Assembly (NCBI RefSeq): GCF_009649955.1
Contig: NZ_CP045875.1
Span: 1,035,501-1,099,500, forward strand
Source of the DNA: Heliorestis convoluta
GTDB lineage: Bacteria; Bacillota; Desulfitobacteriia; Heliobacteriales; Heliobacteriaceae
Reading direction: 5' to 3'
DNA: 64,000 nucleotides
Shown here piece after piece: positions 22,051 through 45,584 of the stretch (the stretch's first letter is position 1; every line of letters begins with the position of its first letter). The position numbers were made by a program, and so were the translations under genes. The notes under the pieces were generated by a model. The model had not been told where the DNA came from, did no database searches, and saw nothing but the letters and a program-made list of their open reading frames with translations.

Positions 22051-22242
22051 CTGTATAAAGTAACTCCAACGTAATCAGGAAATATTGATATTGATCTTTA
22101 TCTTTAACTGTACAGGCGAGCAGGAGGGTTTTTCCGAAAAATCACTTTTTCAGTGCTCCTACGTGCTCTGCTATGCTACTTAAGCCCTTGGTTTTTCTCT
22201 TCTTTGCAGGGCAAACTGATCGCAGGAGGTGAAGTGTATCTG

Positions 22243-23094
22243 ATGCGCAGTCTTTGGAAAGGTGCTGTCAGCTTTGGTCTCGTCCACATTCCGATCAAAC
22301 TGTTTGCAGCCACAGAAGATAAAGATATTCGCTTTCGTCTTCTCCATAAAGAATGTAATCATCCCATTCAATACCAGAAACGATGTCCTCACTGTGACCG
22401 AGAAGTGGAACCAGAAGAAATCGTCAAAGGCTTTGAATACACGAAAGGTCGTTTTGTCATTGTCACAGAAGAAGAGCTCGAAGCTTTAGAGCCTGAAAGC
22501 AGTCGTACCATTGAGATCCAATCTTTTGTTAATCTTCCAGAAATCGATCCTATCTACTTTGTCAAAACCTACTATCTAGCACCGGATCAGCAAGGTCAAA
22601 AAGCCTACGCTTTGTTACATCAAGCACTGCAAGAAATGAACCGTCTGGCTTTAGCCAAAGTTACCTTGCGATCCAAAGAAGCCATTGCCGCTCTTCGCGT
22701 ATACGGTGAGGGCTTGGCAATGCATATTATGCTTTTTCCCGAAGAGATTCGCTCTATGGACCAACTGGGAGAATTAGGGCAAAGCGTAGAAGTCTCAGCC
22801 AAAGAAAAAACCATGGCCATTCAACTGATTGAAAGCCTTACAGAGCCTTTCAACCCAGAGCGATGGCAAAATGAATACAAAGAAAAGTTGAACCACTATC
22901 TACAAGAAAAAGTACAAGGCCAAGAGATTATCGATCAACCAACGGCTCCCGCACCGAAAGGAAAAGTTGTTGATTTGATGGAAGCTTTGAAAGTAAGTCT
23001 CGATCAAGCAAAAGCCCAGCAAGCACAACAGAAAAAAACAACGAAAAAAGGCAAGACCACAAAAAGCACAACAGAGCGCAGAAAAACGTCATGA
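22243..23094 (+). CDS. ku: Non-homologous end joining protein Ku
   Basis: 283 aa from ATG 22243 (MRSLWKGAVSFGLVHIPIKL), the usual Ku start, with AGGAGGTGA ten bases upstream. Bacterial Ku forms a homodimeric ring on DNA ends and recruits LigD. The central Ku beta-barrel is complete and carries a CPHC zinc-like pair (RCPHCDREVEPEEIVKG). The Lys-rich C-terminal tail (KKTTKKGKTTKSTTERRK) is typical of DNA-binding extensions. Its stop overlaps the ligase start (ATGA), so the two are translationally coupled. Structured repeat copy B lies about 190 bp upstream. Confidence 0.95.
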   Translation: MRSLWKGAVSFGLVHIPIKLFAATEDKDIRFRLLHKECNHPIQYQKRCPHCDREVEPEEIVKGFEYTKGRFVIVTEEELEALEPESSRTIEIQSFVNLPEIDPIYFVKTYYLAPDQQGQKAYALLHQALQEMNRLALAKVTLRSKEAIAALRVYGEGLAMHIMLFPEEIRSMDQLGELGQSVEVSAKEKTMAIQLIESLTEPFNPERWQNEYKEKLNHYLQEKVQGQEIIDQPTAPAPKGKVVDLMEALKVSLDQAKAQQAQQKKTTKKGKTTKSTTERRKTS

Positions 23095-23996
23095 CCTATC
23101 TTTTGCCCATGGAACCACAGGTAGCGACAGCGCCTTTTGATCATCCTGATTACTTGTTTCAAATCAAGTGGGATGGCATTCGTTGCTTAGCAACAATCAC
23201 AGAAGAAGGTATGATGCTACGGAGCCGTAATGGCAAGGATATGTCAAAGCAGTTTCCCGAAATTGTTAACTCACCCTTTTTCTCTTCTGGACGAAGTAAG
23301 ACCATTGTTGATGGTGAGCTTGTTGTTCTTGATAGGGATGGTTTACCCAGCTTTCCTTTAGTACTCAAGCGACATCGTTTTCAAAAAGCATCCTCTATTG
23401 AAGAAGGTCGGAAAGTCTATCCTGTTTTATATATGATCTTTGACTTATTGCAGTGGCAAAATCAATCATTTTTAGAACACCCTTTGGAAAAGCGCTTGGC
23501 CAAGCTAGAAAGAGAGCTAGTGCCTTCTAATCATATCGTTTTTACAAAAGCGGAAGAGGCCGCGGGCATTGCTTTTTTCCAATCCATTCAAAAACTGAAC
23601 TTAGAAGGCATGGTCGGCAAAGATCGCAACAGCCTCTATCGACCAGGAAAAAAGGCAAGAACCTGGAAAAAAGTAAAAAACTTTCGACAACTTTCTTGTT
23701 TTGTGATTGGCTTTACCCAGTCTCAAGAAGGTCAAATTGCTTCTCTCGCCCTTGGCTTGCCTCTGGAAAATACATGGCAGTATATTGGAAAAGTAGGCAC
23801 AGGGATCTCCCAGAAGGAGGCTCGGCTATGGTACGTACGTCTCCATCCTCAGCAGATGAAAGAATCAACGACGGAAGTGAAAAAACAAGGCTATCACAAA
23901 GTCCACCAACCCTACCCAATCATAGTGCAATATCTAGAATGGACCCAAGATCTGCGCTTACGCCATCCATCGTTGCTATCGACGATAGAACCTTAG
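23091..23996 (+). CDS. ligD: ATP-dependent DNA ligase (LigD ligase module)
   Basis: 301 aa. Seals breaks bridged by Ku. The nucleotidyltransferase domain carries the adenylation motif IKWDGIR (active Lys about residue 24), RSRNGKD (motif Ia), DGELVVLD (motif III), LNLEGMVGKD (motif IV) and WKKVKN (motif V). An OB-fold domain follows. The polymerase module is not fused but lies directly downstream, starting inside the end of this gene in another frame. No phosphoesterase (PE) domain is seen. Three-part Ku / Lig / Pol operons of this kind are common in Firmicutes. Confidence 0.92.
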   Translation: MTYLLPMEPQVATAPFDHPDYLFQIKWDGIRCLATITEEGMMLRSRNGKDMSKQFPEIVNSPFFSSGRSKTIVDGELVVLDRDGLPSFPLVLKRHRFQKASSIEEGRKVYPVLYMIFDLLQWQNQSFLEHPLEKRLAKLERELVPSNHIVFTKAEEAAGIAFFQSIQKLNLEGMVGKDRNSLYRPGKKARTWKKVKNFRQLSCFVIGFTQSQEGQIASLALGLPLENTWQYIGKVGTGISQKEARLWYVRLHPQQMKESTTEVKKQGYHKVHQPYPIIVQYLEWTQDLRLRHPSLLSTIEP

Positions 23997-24882
23997 AAGT
24001 AAAAGGGAAGGGAAAAAAACTTCGCCTGACCAATTTAGACAAGATTTTTTGGCCTAACGAAGGGTATACAAAAGGAGATCTTTTAGACTATTACTTGCAA
24101 ATAGCGCCTTATCTCATGCCTCATCTACAAAAACGACCGATTGTCATGGTTCGCCACCCTGATGGGGTTGAGGGAAAGTCATTTTATCAGAAAGAAAGCC
24201 CTTCTTTTCGCCCCTCCTGGCTACCTGTATTGCTATCTACTCCCGTCAGAGTAAGAAGTCCATTACCTATTGTCTCGTAAAAGACTGGATTGACTTACTT
24301 TACCTAATCAACCTCGGCTGCATCGAACTTCATCCCTGGCTTTCACAAAGTCCACAGCTCCATGTACCCTCTTATATGGTCTTCGACCTCGATCCCCATG
24401 AGAGCCAGTCATTTGAGACCGTCGTAGAAGTTGCCTGGCTCGTCAAAGAAGCTTTAGATAGTTTTGGACTGACTTCGTACCCCAAAACATCGGGACGATC
24501 GGGCTTGCATATCTATGTGCCCCTTAAGCCCCAGTATAGCTATGATACAGCAAGGCAATGCGCTATCGTCTTAGCCCGATTTATAGAAAAGATAGACTGC
24601 CGCGTTACCCTAGAGCGCTCGATTGAAAGAAGAGGACAAGCTCTCTATCTCGATTGCTGGCAGATAGGAAAGGGAAAAACCTTGGCTTCTATCTACAGTC
24701 CTCGACCCCTTCCTGGTGCACCTGTCTCAACACCATTAGCGTGGTCAGAAGTGAAAAGCAATGTAGATCCACAAGCTTTCAATCTAACCTCGGTCGTAGA
24801 TAGAGTAAAGCAAAAAGGCGATCTTTTTGCATCTCTTTTGACAGAAGAAAATGACTTGACGGCTTTGTTGGAGCTTTTGTAG
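23939..24882 (+). pseudogene. ligD: LigD polymerase/primase module, frameshifted
   Basis: ATG 23939 overlaps the ligase 3' end (MDPRSALTPSIVAI...). The first part carries KLRLTNLDKIFWP, GYTKGDLLDYY, VRHPDGVEGKSFYQKE. Near 24225-24245 the frame changes. In the new frame the domain continues (KKSITYCLVKDWIDLLYLIN, LGCIELHPWLS, MVFDLDPHE with the catalytic DxD, SGRSGLHIYVPL) to 24882. The catalytic residues survive, so the only lesion is a net one- or two-base indel. Either NHEJ polymerase function was lost recently, two polypeptides are made, or the assembly has an error. An internal ATG at 24376 lacks a good ribosome site. Confidence 0.85.
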
Positions 24883-29884: not shown

Positions 29885-30525
29885 AAACAAAAAGAGAAGG
29901 CTGATTAAAAAGCCTTCTCTCTAGAAGCAACCATCCCTACAGTTCCTACATAGACTAAACAATCTACCAAAGTAAAGGATTCAAAACCAACCCTTTCCCT
30001 AAGAAAAAACAGGTGATGGACTAAATTTACCGACGTAACAAGAGACAACATACCCGATTGCTGAGTTACTACTGAATAACCCTAAAACTACTCAATTCAC
30101 CAAACTAAAGTCACTAACTCTACCCAAGCAGAGAGTCACTAAAAAACCTTACCAAAGTTTCGAAACCAGAATTACCTGATTCACCATATGGGCTGATTTA
30201 CCCAACAAAAGGGATTCAACTTACCAATCTTAAGTCTACTAAATATACCGTACTAATAAATCGACGTTACCAAGTTACCAGTAGGTTCACGTAGTCAACC
30301 AAAATACCCAAACTCGAGAATACTAGAAACACCGGATTGAAAGACAAACATCGCAACCACTTACGGTTTTCTCCAGGTGACACTCAGCATGACTGGGTAA
30401 ATCCTAGGAAAATCTTTCTCTAAAAACCTTCGAATGAATTAAACCCACCTGACAACCTACCTGACGATGCTTTCTACGCTCCTTTTTCGTTTCTCTCTCT
30501 CTCTGAAACTGTAAGGATATTGCCT
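29885..30525 (-). ncRNA. Candidate ~640-nt non-coding transcript with quasi-periodic GGT motif
   Basis: No frame is open on either strand. On the minus strand a good promoter (30532-30560) starts it. A hairpin GAGAAGGCT/AGCCTTCTC (plus 29894-29902, 29911-29919), followed by a U-rich run, ends it before the purL promoter. In between, GGTAA/GGTGA/GGTAG motifs followed by A/T and often TTAGT recur about every 20-29 nt; the matching plus-strand ACC positions include 30029, 30052, 30079, 30099, 30122, 30151, 30174, 30200, 30223, 30247 and 30269. It does not match RNase P, tmRNA, SRP or 6S features I know. Function unknown. Confidence 0.5.
29886..29921 (-). terminator. Terminator of the candidate ncRNA
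   Basis: Minus-strand 9-bp stem with a short A-rich loop, then TTTTTGTTTTTTT. It isolates the upstream transcript from purL. Confidence 0.75.
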
Positions 30526-30531
30526 GACTAA

Positions 30532-30560
30532 AGTGTACCACAGTGTTACTCTTTTGACAA
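30532..30560 (-). promoter_or_regulatory. Promoter of the candidate ncRNA
   Basis: TTGTCA (plus 30555-30560), 17 bp, TACACT (plus 30532-30537). An inverted repeat AAGTAC..GTACTT (plus about 30559-30576) overlaps the -35 end and may be an operator. Confidence 0.6.
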
Positions 30561-30595: not shown

Positions 30596-30802
30596 CTATT
30601 TGCCTTTTTTCTCTTGAAAACCTGTACAGGGATGGCCGCAGCTTTGAAACACTACGAGACTGGGCATATGTGCTGTTTTAAAGTTAAGAAGTCTACAACC
30701 TCGAGGATGCCGATCTTCCCAGGTGATATAAAAGTGCTCACAGCGCAGGCAGTTTATTCTTTTCTTTTCTCTAGCAATAGGACGATTATCTTTATTCGTC
30801 AT
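30596..30802 (-). CDS. Small conserved Cys-motif protein
   Basis: 68 aa, ATG with AAGGATGG upstream. The pattern CLRCEHFYITWEDRHPRGCRLLNFKTAHMPS followed by GHPCTGFQEK matches a widespread small Clostridia/Deltaproteobacteria family (often automatically labelled as uracil-DNA-glycosylase-related without evidence). CxxC..GC..C could bind zinc or iron. Function unknown. It lies between uppP and the ncRNA promoter on the same strand. Confidence 0.75.
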   Translation of the reverse strand: MTNKDNRPIAREKKRINCLRCEHFYITWEDRHPRGCRLLNFKTAHMPSLVVFQSCGHPCTGFQEKKGK

Positions 30803-33183: not shown

Positions 33184-33259
<76 letters not shown>

Positions 33260-33265
33260 AAAATA

Positions 33266-33341
33266 TGGTGACCCGTAGGGGATTCGAACCCCTGTTACCG
33301 CCGTGAAAGGGCGGTGTCTTAGACCACTTGACCAACGGGCC
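33266..33341 (-). tRNA. tRNA-Glu (TTC)
   Basis: 76 nt with encoded CCA; anticodon stem CCGCC/GGCGG around CTTTCAC, anticodon TTC; T-arm GGGGTTCGAATCCCC. Confidence 0.95.
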
Positions 33342-33346
33342 TTATA

Positions 33347-33421
33347 TGGCTGGGGTGGCTGGATTCGAACCAACGAATGGCGGAGTCAAAGTCCGCTGCC
33401 TTACCACTTGGCTACACCCCA
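33347..33421 (-). tRNA. tRNA-Gln (TTG)
   Basis: 75 nt with encoded CCA; acceptor TGGGGTG; anticodon loop CTTTGAC, anticodon TTG. Confidence 0.95.
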
Positions 33422-33434
33422 ACGGTGGAGAAAA

Positions 33435-33519
<85 letters not shown>

Positions 33520-33527
33520 TATTACGT

Positions 33528-33604
33528 TGGTAGCGGTGGTAGGATTTGAACCTACGACTCTACGGGTATGAACCGTATGCTCTGACCAACTGAGCTACAC
33601 CGCC
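33528..33604 (-). tRNA. tRNA-Met (CAT), elongator type
   Basis: 77 nt; acceptor GGCGGTG with a G-U first pair; anticodon stem TACGG/CCGTA around TTCATAC; sequence close to Bacillus elongator tRNA-Met. First in the operon. Confidence 0.92.
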
Positions 33605-36419: not shown

Positions 36420-36692
36420 TACAAAAAATAAAAACCTTCTCGCCCCATGGGACGAAAAGGTTATTCCGCGGTACCACCCAATTTGTCACTTTGTTACTAC
36501 ATCGTGACCTCTTGCAAGGAGATAACGGTCCTACCGGCACAAACTTAAAATGCATTCGCACGCTCAGTCTGGCAACTCCCGGGCGAGTTCAATCGACTTT
36601 CTCCTGTCTCGCAGCAAACGACAGGTCTCTGAAAGAAAAGTACAGATCTACTACTCCCGCTCAACGTCTTTCCTAAAAATATATAATTACAC
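36420..36692 (-). promoter_or_regulatory. T-box leader controlling leuS
   Basis: On the minus strand the T-box GGGTGGTACCGCGG is followed by a terminator hairpin (AACCTTTTCGTCCC / GGGGCGAGAAGGTT then T5-A-T6, plus about 36425-36463). Upstream stem I structures include GAACTC in the expected specifier-loop position, giving CTC (Leu), consistent with the downstream gene. Confidence 0.92.
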
Positions 36693-45482: not shown

Positions 45483-45584
45483 TTAAAACACCTCCTAACT
45501 AGACTCACCAAGTACTAGGCGGAGCAAAAAGCTCACTTCCGAAGCCCGACTTGTGTGGTTGAGACAGGGGATAGATACCTACAA
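45483..45584 (-). promoter_or_regulatory. rplU 5' leader (probable L21 leader)
   Basis: About 100 nt between promoter and rplU with GC-rich hairpins (AGTCGGGCTTCGG region and AGTGAGC TTTTT GCTC). Position and size fit the L21 leader used for autoregulation in Firmicutes; the exact consensus could not be checked. Confidence 0.5.

Follow-up and report, generated by a model that had tools for sequence, protein, structure and literature searches.

A conserved stand-alone noncoding RNA gene upstream of purL in Heliorestis convoluta and its proposed family of RNAs with clamped ends

The RNA gene and its immediate surroundings

The window, namely the whole stretch of 64,000 nt of the Heliorestis convoluta genome that was analysed, carries upstream of purL a predicted gene for a noncoding RNA, with a body of 597 nt on the minus strand (30523..29927). 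The genome is a single contig of 3,218,981 bases, in which this gene is present in one copy. The first-pass annotation had claimed a promoter (TTGTCA, 17 nt, TACACT) and an intrinsic terminator on the same strand, and both are found on the minus strand, at 30560..30532 and 29922..29891, respectively. Precisely, the -35 box TTGTCA is followed, after the 17-nt spacer, by an extended -10 box (TGG TACACT) that ends 8 nt before the RNA body, and we infer a transcription start at about 30525-30523 (-). The terminator hairpin (AGAGAGAAGGC..GCCTTCTCTTT) is followed by a T tract that reaches to about 29880.

The stretch had also been described as free of ORFs, which holds for ORFs of 60 aa or more in the RNA (minus strand), where only unconvincing ORFs of 25-48 aa were present. 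In the Heliorestis RNA, some 35-40 nt from its start, the sequence AAAGGAG looks like a ribosome binding site and could be taken as a sign of a messenger for a small peptide; no start codon stands at a fitting distance from it, no ORF is conserved and the ORFs reach only the lengths given above, which makes such a messenger scarcely credible.

Upstream of the RNA lies a gene for a small Cys-motif protein of 68 aa (30596-30802), whose relatives, among the 31 genomes searched, were limited to the same genus, G002 and G006.

Relatives of the RNA

Conservation in relatives had been named as a test of the gene, and 24 homologues were found, in Heliobacteriaceae, Desulfotruncus, Pelotomaculum, a Sporomusaceae MAG and other Bacillota, giving 25 sequences together with the window. 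In the homologue of Heliorestis acidaminivorans (G001, L146), detected with BLAST, both ends are about 80% identical and the interior is about 245 nt shorter. The Heliobacteriaceae MAG STF2_203 (G003) has a body of 269 nt with the same ends, which also lies before purL, with different genes upstream.

A pattern made of the 3′ arm described below and the terminator was run on 84,980 species genomes and gave 69 stretches, eight of which carried the complete terminator and, when inspected, also showed the 5′ partner and the promoter. These eight belong to Desulfotruncus alcoholivorax, D. arcticus, two Pelotomaculum MAGs, a Bacillota MAG, a Sporomusaceae MAG and the two Heliobacteriaceae. Covariance models of the 3′ end, run in one of the searches on a sample of 398 genomes of the phylum, added the Heliobacteriaceae copies in G004, G005 and G007 and further Bacillota; matches below about 30 bits were mostly other terminators. 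Follow-up searches around G195 and G128 covered 3-4 genomes each. Since only 398 genomes of the phylum were sampled, the family is expected to be larger than the 25 members listed. The sequence CTGTRGGGATGGTTGC, with one mismatch allowed, was discarded as a family marker across the class, as it gave chance matches apart from three known copies. The 5′ arm pattern had 32 matches in viral contigs, none of them with the 3′ end.

All 25 members have the TG extension and the 8-nt gap between promoter and first helix, and 23 of them have a 17-nt spacer when the best-scoring choice is taken, so that the family layout can be written as TTG-17-TGnTAnnnT, with a gap of exactly 8 nt before the helix P1 begins. 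The terminator adjoins the 3′ end of P1 in every member, and its stem sequences are unrelated between groups. The earlier proposal of a large, independent noncoding RNA is thus strongly supported by 24 homologues in which the promoter, the terminator and the pairing of the ends are kept, as well as by the negative Rfam scans given below; on these grounds we hold it as nearly certain that the window carries a real, conserved RNA gene, as predicted.

The body ranges from 187 to 712 nt across the family, with an interior of about 150 to almost 700 bases, an almost fourfold range. Bodies of 187-305 nt belong to the members outside Heliobacteriaceae and to G003; the other Heliobacteriaceae bodies measure 349, 537, 597 (window), 666 and 712 nt, and the long forms are all from this family of bacteria.

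The clamp helix and other structure

The first pointer to a clamp came from the fold of the window RNA, in which the first bases (GCAATATCCTTACAGTTTC) pair with the last ones before the terminator (GGAACTGTAGGGATGGTTGC). The helix, P1, is formed by a 5′ arm (GCAATATCCTTACAGT, 30508..30523, minus strand) and a 3′ arm (ACTGTAGGGATGGTTGC, 29927..29943, minus strand), consists of 16 pairs and one bulge, and joins the first and the last bases of the RNA body. In the family the arms read GCAmCAUCC... on the 5′ side and ...GGAUGGUUGC on the 3′ side, with compensatory changes between them; examples of arm pairs are CCUUACAG/CUGUAGGG, CCCUAUAG/CUAUAGGG and AUUCCUACGG/CCGUAGGAAU. The MFE fold contains P1 in 25 of 25 members. 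Over the 25 sequences, 91.9% of the P1 cells were paired, versus 34-59% for slid partners, and 10 cells had double-sided changes, versus 3.7 in shuffles (0 of 500 shuffles as high). We considered as a member of the family any sequence with the promoter TTG-17-TGnTAnnnT, 8 nt, a GCAmCAUCC arm paired to GGAUGGUUGC and a terminator directly after, a description that applies to 25 sequences. Judging from these alignments, the long-range 5′/3′ clamp, which was absent from the first-pass annotation, is the defining feature of the RNA family.

For a second helix, P2 (GACU..GGUU/AACC..AGUC), 85% of the cells were paired, versus 8-45% for slid partners; its covariation, however, showed no excess of changes over shuffles, and we therefore dropped it as a proven helix despite the 85% pairing and regard P2 only as a probable second helix of the family. 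The motif RGGAUAGUGUUUUU is nearly invariant among the core members and present in most members. In the window, CCGGTGTTTC (30326..30335, minus strand) may be a diverged equivalent of this internal motif (RGGATAGTGTTTT), a tentative assignment made by eye. A 5′ subdomain of the Heliorestis RNA (30316..30503, minus strand) is predicted to form nested pairings (GAAAC/GUUUC, AAGCAUCG/GCGAUGUUU and CAGGU/ACCUG), and H. acidaminivorans has a similar predicted fold, the support coming from these two species only.

The window RNA as a whole has an MFE z-score of -3.3. The interiors taken alone have z-scores around zero or positive, being no more stable than shuffles and often less, and are poor in C in most members.

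GGT words, repeats and the 5′ arm

The interior of the window RNA is rich in GGT (30029..30282, minus strand), with GGTRA and GGTTA words whose flanks are more similar than expected by chance (p 0.001-0.004). The excess of such words, already claimed, was borne out against dinucleotide shuffles: GGT occurs 28 times versus 18.3 and GGT[AG]A 9 times versus 2.0, with 0 of 2000 shuffles as high. The periodicity of about 23 nt that had been attached to them fared less well. Eleven words spaced by 20-29 nt can be selected over 30271..30031, but only if three or four others are skipped; a period of about 24.5-25 nt stands out against shuffles inside a chosen segment of 290 nt (p 0.005-0.007, or 0.02-0.03 with any period allowed), but is lost when the RNA is taken in full (p 0.14-0.47). 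Strict periodicity was rejected, as the spectral tests fail over the whole window RNA and in other members.

TRF found in the window the 12-nt TGTCAGGTnGGT pair, in agreement with the tandem pair that had been reported near the 5′ end, and beyond it no array in the GGT-rich region. In one Heliobacteriaceae homologue (L168) it found tandem repeats with units of 19-20 and 38 nt (positions 1725-1882 of that sequence), and no shuffle was as high at lags 20 and 38; these repeats are possibly a record of interior expansion. A second Heliobacteriaceae homologue (L169) has a significant lag of 20, and TRF gave for it short pairs only and no array. As clear repeats of about 20 nt exist in these two relatives, a decayed array is plausible in the window too, where the repeats may have decayed below detection.

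Words were counted across the family after removal of the conserved ends, separately for 18 core members and for the long Heliobacteriaceae forms. GGTT was enriched in both (49 versus 33.7 expected and 68 versus 29.9, respectively) and GGTA likewise; GGT as such was not enriched in the 18 core members (84 versus 77.6), the enrichment being limited to GGTT and GGTA. Short members have few GGT words (2-14), and in the predicted folds these words are no more unpaired than other positions. The suggestion that the words are protein sites or the remains of an array is therefore favoured in part, by the family-wide enrichment and by the 20-nt repeats of two Heliobacteriaceae; the strict 23-nt period is not family-wide, and the binding protein is a putative one.

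The interior could also be neutral filler, with only P1, P2, the motif and the terminator of importance and the GGT words produced by repeat slippage. Its length and sequence change fast, and the tandem repeats in L168 and L169 are what slippage would leave; the enrichment of GGTT and GGTA and the avoidance of GGTG in distant members, all outside the conserved ends, are not expected from filler, and we give this reading a modest chance.

GGTG itself occurs 2 times versus 14.8 expected in the 18 core members, and is not clearly avoided in Heliobacteriaceae, whose 5′ arm has GCAA. This fits with a protection of the GCACC of the 5′ arm from mispairing. The same avoidance speaks for another alternative, in which the RNA acts by switching or base-pairing: the 5′ arm would pair first with the internal RGGAUAGUG and later be captured by the 3′ arm, which would free the motif and its U-run for a target or a protein. 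On the 5′ domain, RNAalifold pairs GCAC.AUCC with GGAU.GUGU; in most core members no interior segment pairs better with the 5′ arm than RGGAUAGUG, at the same place; and arm and motif changed together in L205. Against this, the arm-motif pairing in single sequences is no better than in shuffles, the arm of L173 changed with its motif unchanged, and the pairing is lost in Heliorestis. We consider such a switch rather unlikely.

Genomic context

The tRNA identity and the names of neighbouring genes were recognised from sequence and neighbourhood. The order RNA, tRNA-Ser-type tRNA, SRP RNA (and dnaX) was seen in Desulfotruncus and in L140, L152, L170, L199 and L200, and a gene like that for asparaginyl-tRNA synthetase (asnS) lies downstream of the RNA in L198 and L205. 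The remaining members have other neighbour genes. A synteny check of the region upstream of purL gave a divided result: the linkage exists in the two Heliorestis species and G003 alone, the other members being elsewhere.

A leader that acts in cis, attenuating purL at the terminator that lies about 90-110 nt upstream of it, would account for the position of the RNA, with the terminator in between, in the three purL-linked genomes. It would not account for the members before tRNA-Ser/SRP/dnaX, asnS and unrelated genes, nor for the copies of G004, G005 and G007, which lie away from purL; furthermore, no antiterminator was seen to overlap the terminator, and P1 is conserved among members whose terminator sequences differ. 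As neighbour genes and terminator sequence vary, the RNA does not appear to be a purL leader, a reading that we regard as highly improbable, and a purL attenuator was rejected on the varied context and the absence of an antiterminator. No neighbouring protein gene is constant across the members, which most naturally suggests an RNA that acts in trans, and from this distribution action in trans rather than in cis seems very probable.

In L120, L123, L140, L152, L170, L199 and L200, a tRNA gene and then the large SRP RNA come immediately after the RNA. This site is perhaps the older location of the RNA gene.

Comparison with known RNAs

Rfam 15, the library of which includes OLE, ROOL and GOLLD, gave no match to a known class over the RNA in the members scanned, permissive thresholds being used for most of them, and the covariance models of the raiA motif RNA (RF03072) and of 6S RNA (RF00013) gave none over the RNA in the members scanned either. 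A match to STnc40 in L205 was rejected, being weak, below the gathering score and on the opposite strand over the terminator. No description of the RNA family was found in the open-access literature searched. Since there is neither an Rfam match nor a description in that literature, we put forward that the window RNA belongs to a new family of stand-alone noncoding RNA genes whose interior is unusual in being elastic, as delimited by sequence comparison.

CsrB, CsrC, RsmY and RsmZ have their own promoter and terminator and a short repeated word, the copy number and length of which vary among species. The window family resembles these titrators of CsrA/RsmA in being a stand-alone gene with a short word in many copies. 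In those RNAs, however, GGA is repeated in CsrA-binding hairpin loops, whereas here the enriched words are GGTT and GGTA (GGUU/GGUA in the RNA), together with a long-range clamp of 16 bp; there is no sequence relation, and the proposed likeness is one of working only. 6S RNA is also a stand-alone gene with paired ends, but it has about 180-200 nt and a defined central bulge, against the 187-712 nt found here.

The raiA motif or ModT RNA (RF03072), of 215 and 260 nt in C. difficile, acts in trans (PMC11706538). Like the window family, it is a conserved stand-alone noncoding RNA of Bacillota; ModT, however, is compact with pseudoknots, whereas here the interior folds weakly and its length is elastic. 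OLE, ROOL and GOLLD belong to the large noncoding RNAs of bacteria (PMC12286853). A big scaffold or particle made of RNA only, as with these three, would agree with a stand-alone gene of up to 712 nt with paired ends and no coding capacity. Those RNAs are highly structured and form RNA complexes, whereas the interior here is no more structured than shuffles and varies almost fourfold in length, and their Rfam models do not match, so that we consider a scaffold of this kind improbable.

Proposed function

The clamp, the promoter, the terminator and the word enrichment are read directly from the DNA; transcription, action in trans, protein binding and regulation are our inference. The best explanation overall is a family of clamped stand-alone RNAs acting in trans as a platform for a protein that binds GGUW, to which we assign a probability of about 0.6. 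The RNA would be a stable, weakly folded platform held at its ends by P1, on which exposed GGUU and GGUA words would bind a putative RNA-binding protein and scaffold or titrate it, in the mode of CsrB/RsmZ on CsrA with another word. Heliobacteriaceae would have enlarged the platform by GGU-bearing repeats of about 20-24 nt, now decayed in the window. The protein platform as such is suggested by analogy, and we hold it tentatively. The most complete version, in which an undescribed class of trans-acting RNA uses an end clamp with two alternative partners of the 5′ arm to control an elastic, multi-site GGUW platform for a putative regulatory RNA-binding protein, enlarged by repeat expansion in Heliobacteria, is speculative.

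To our knowledge, conserved stand-alone noncoding RNAs without known relatives are few, and 6S, OLE, ModT and CsrB, once worked out, proved to have broad effects on the cell. Members of the family occur in several Bacillota lineages, among them the heliobacteria, which are the phototrophs of this phylum, and Rfam has no entry for it. The clamp, the other possible partner of the 5′ arm and the GGUW words lend themselves to separate mutation, and the length range of the family offers a natural experiment on the purpose of the interior.

Other features of the window

Five tRNA genes (33187-33604) are present, as is an L21 leader (45491-45570). The Rfam scan placed a T-box leader (121 bits) at 36445-36673 (-), directly upstream of leuS. 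By eye, the protein sequences at 22153-24882 point to a Ku-like gene (22153-23094) and, behind it, a ligase-D-like gene. The latter is in at least 3 pieces in different frames (23091-23996, 23696-24280 and 24376-24882), which suggests frameshifts or a pseudogene.
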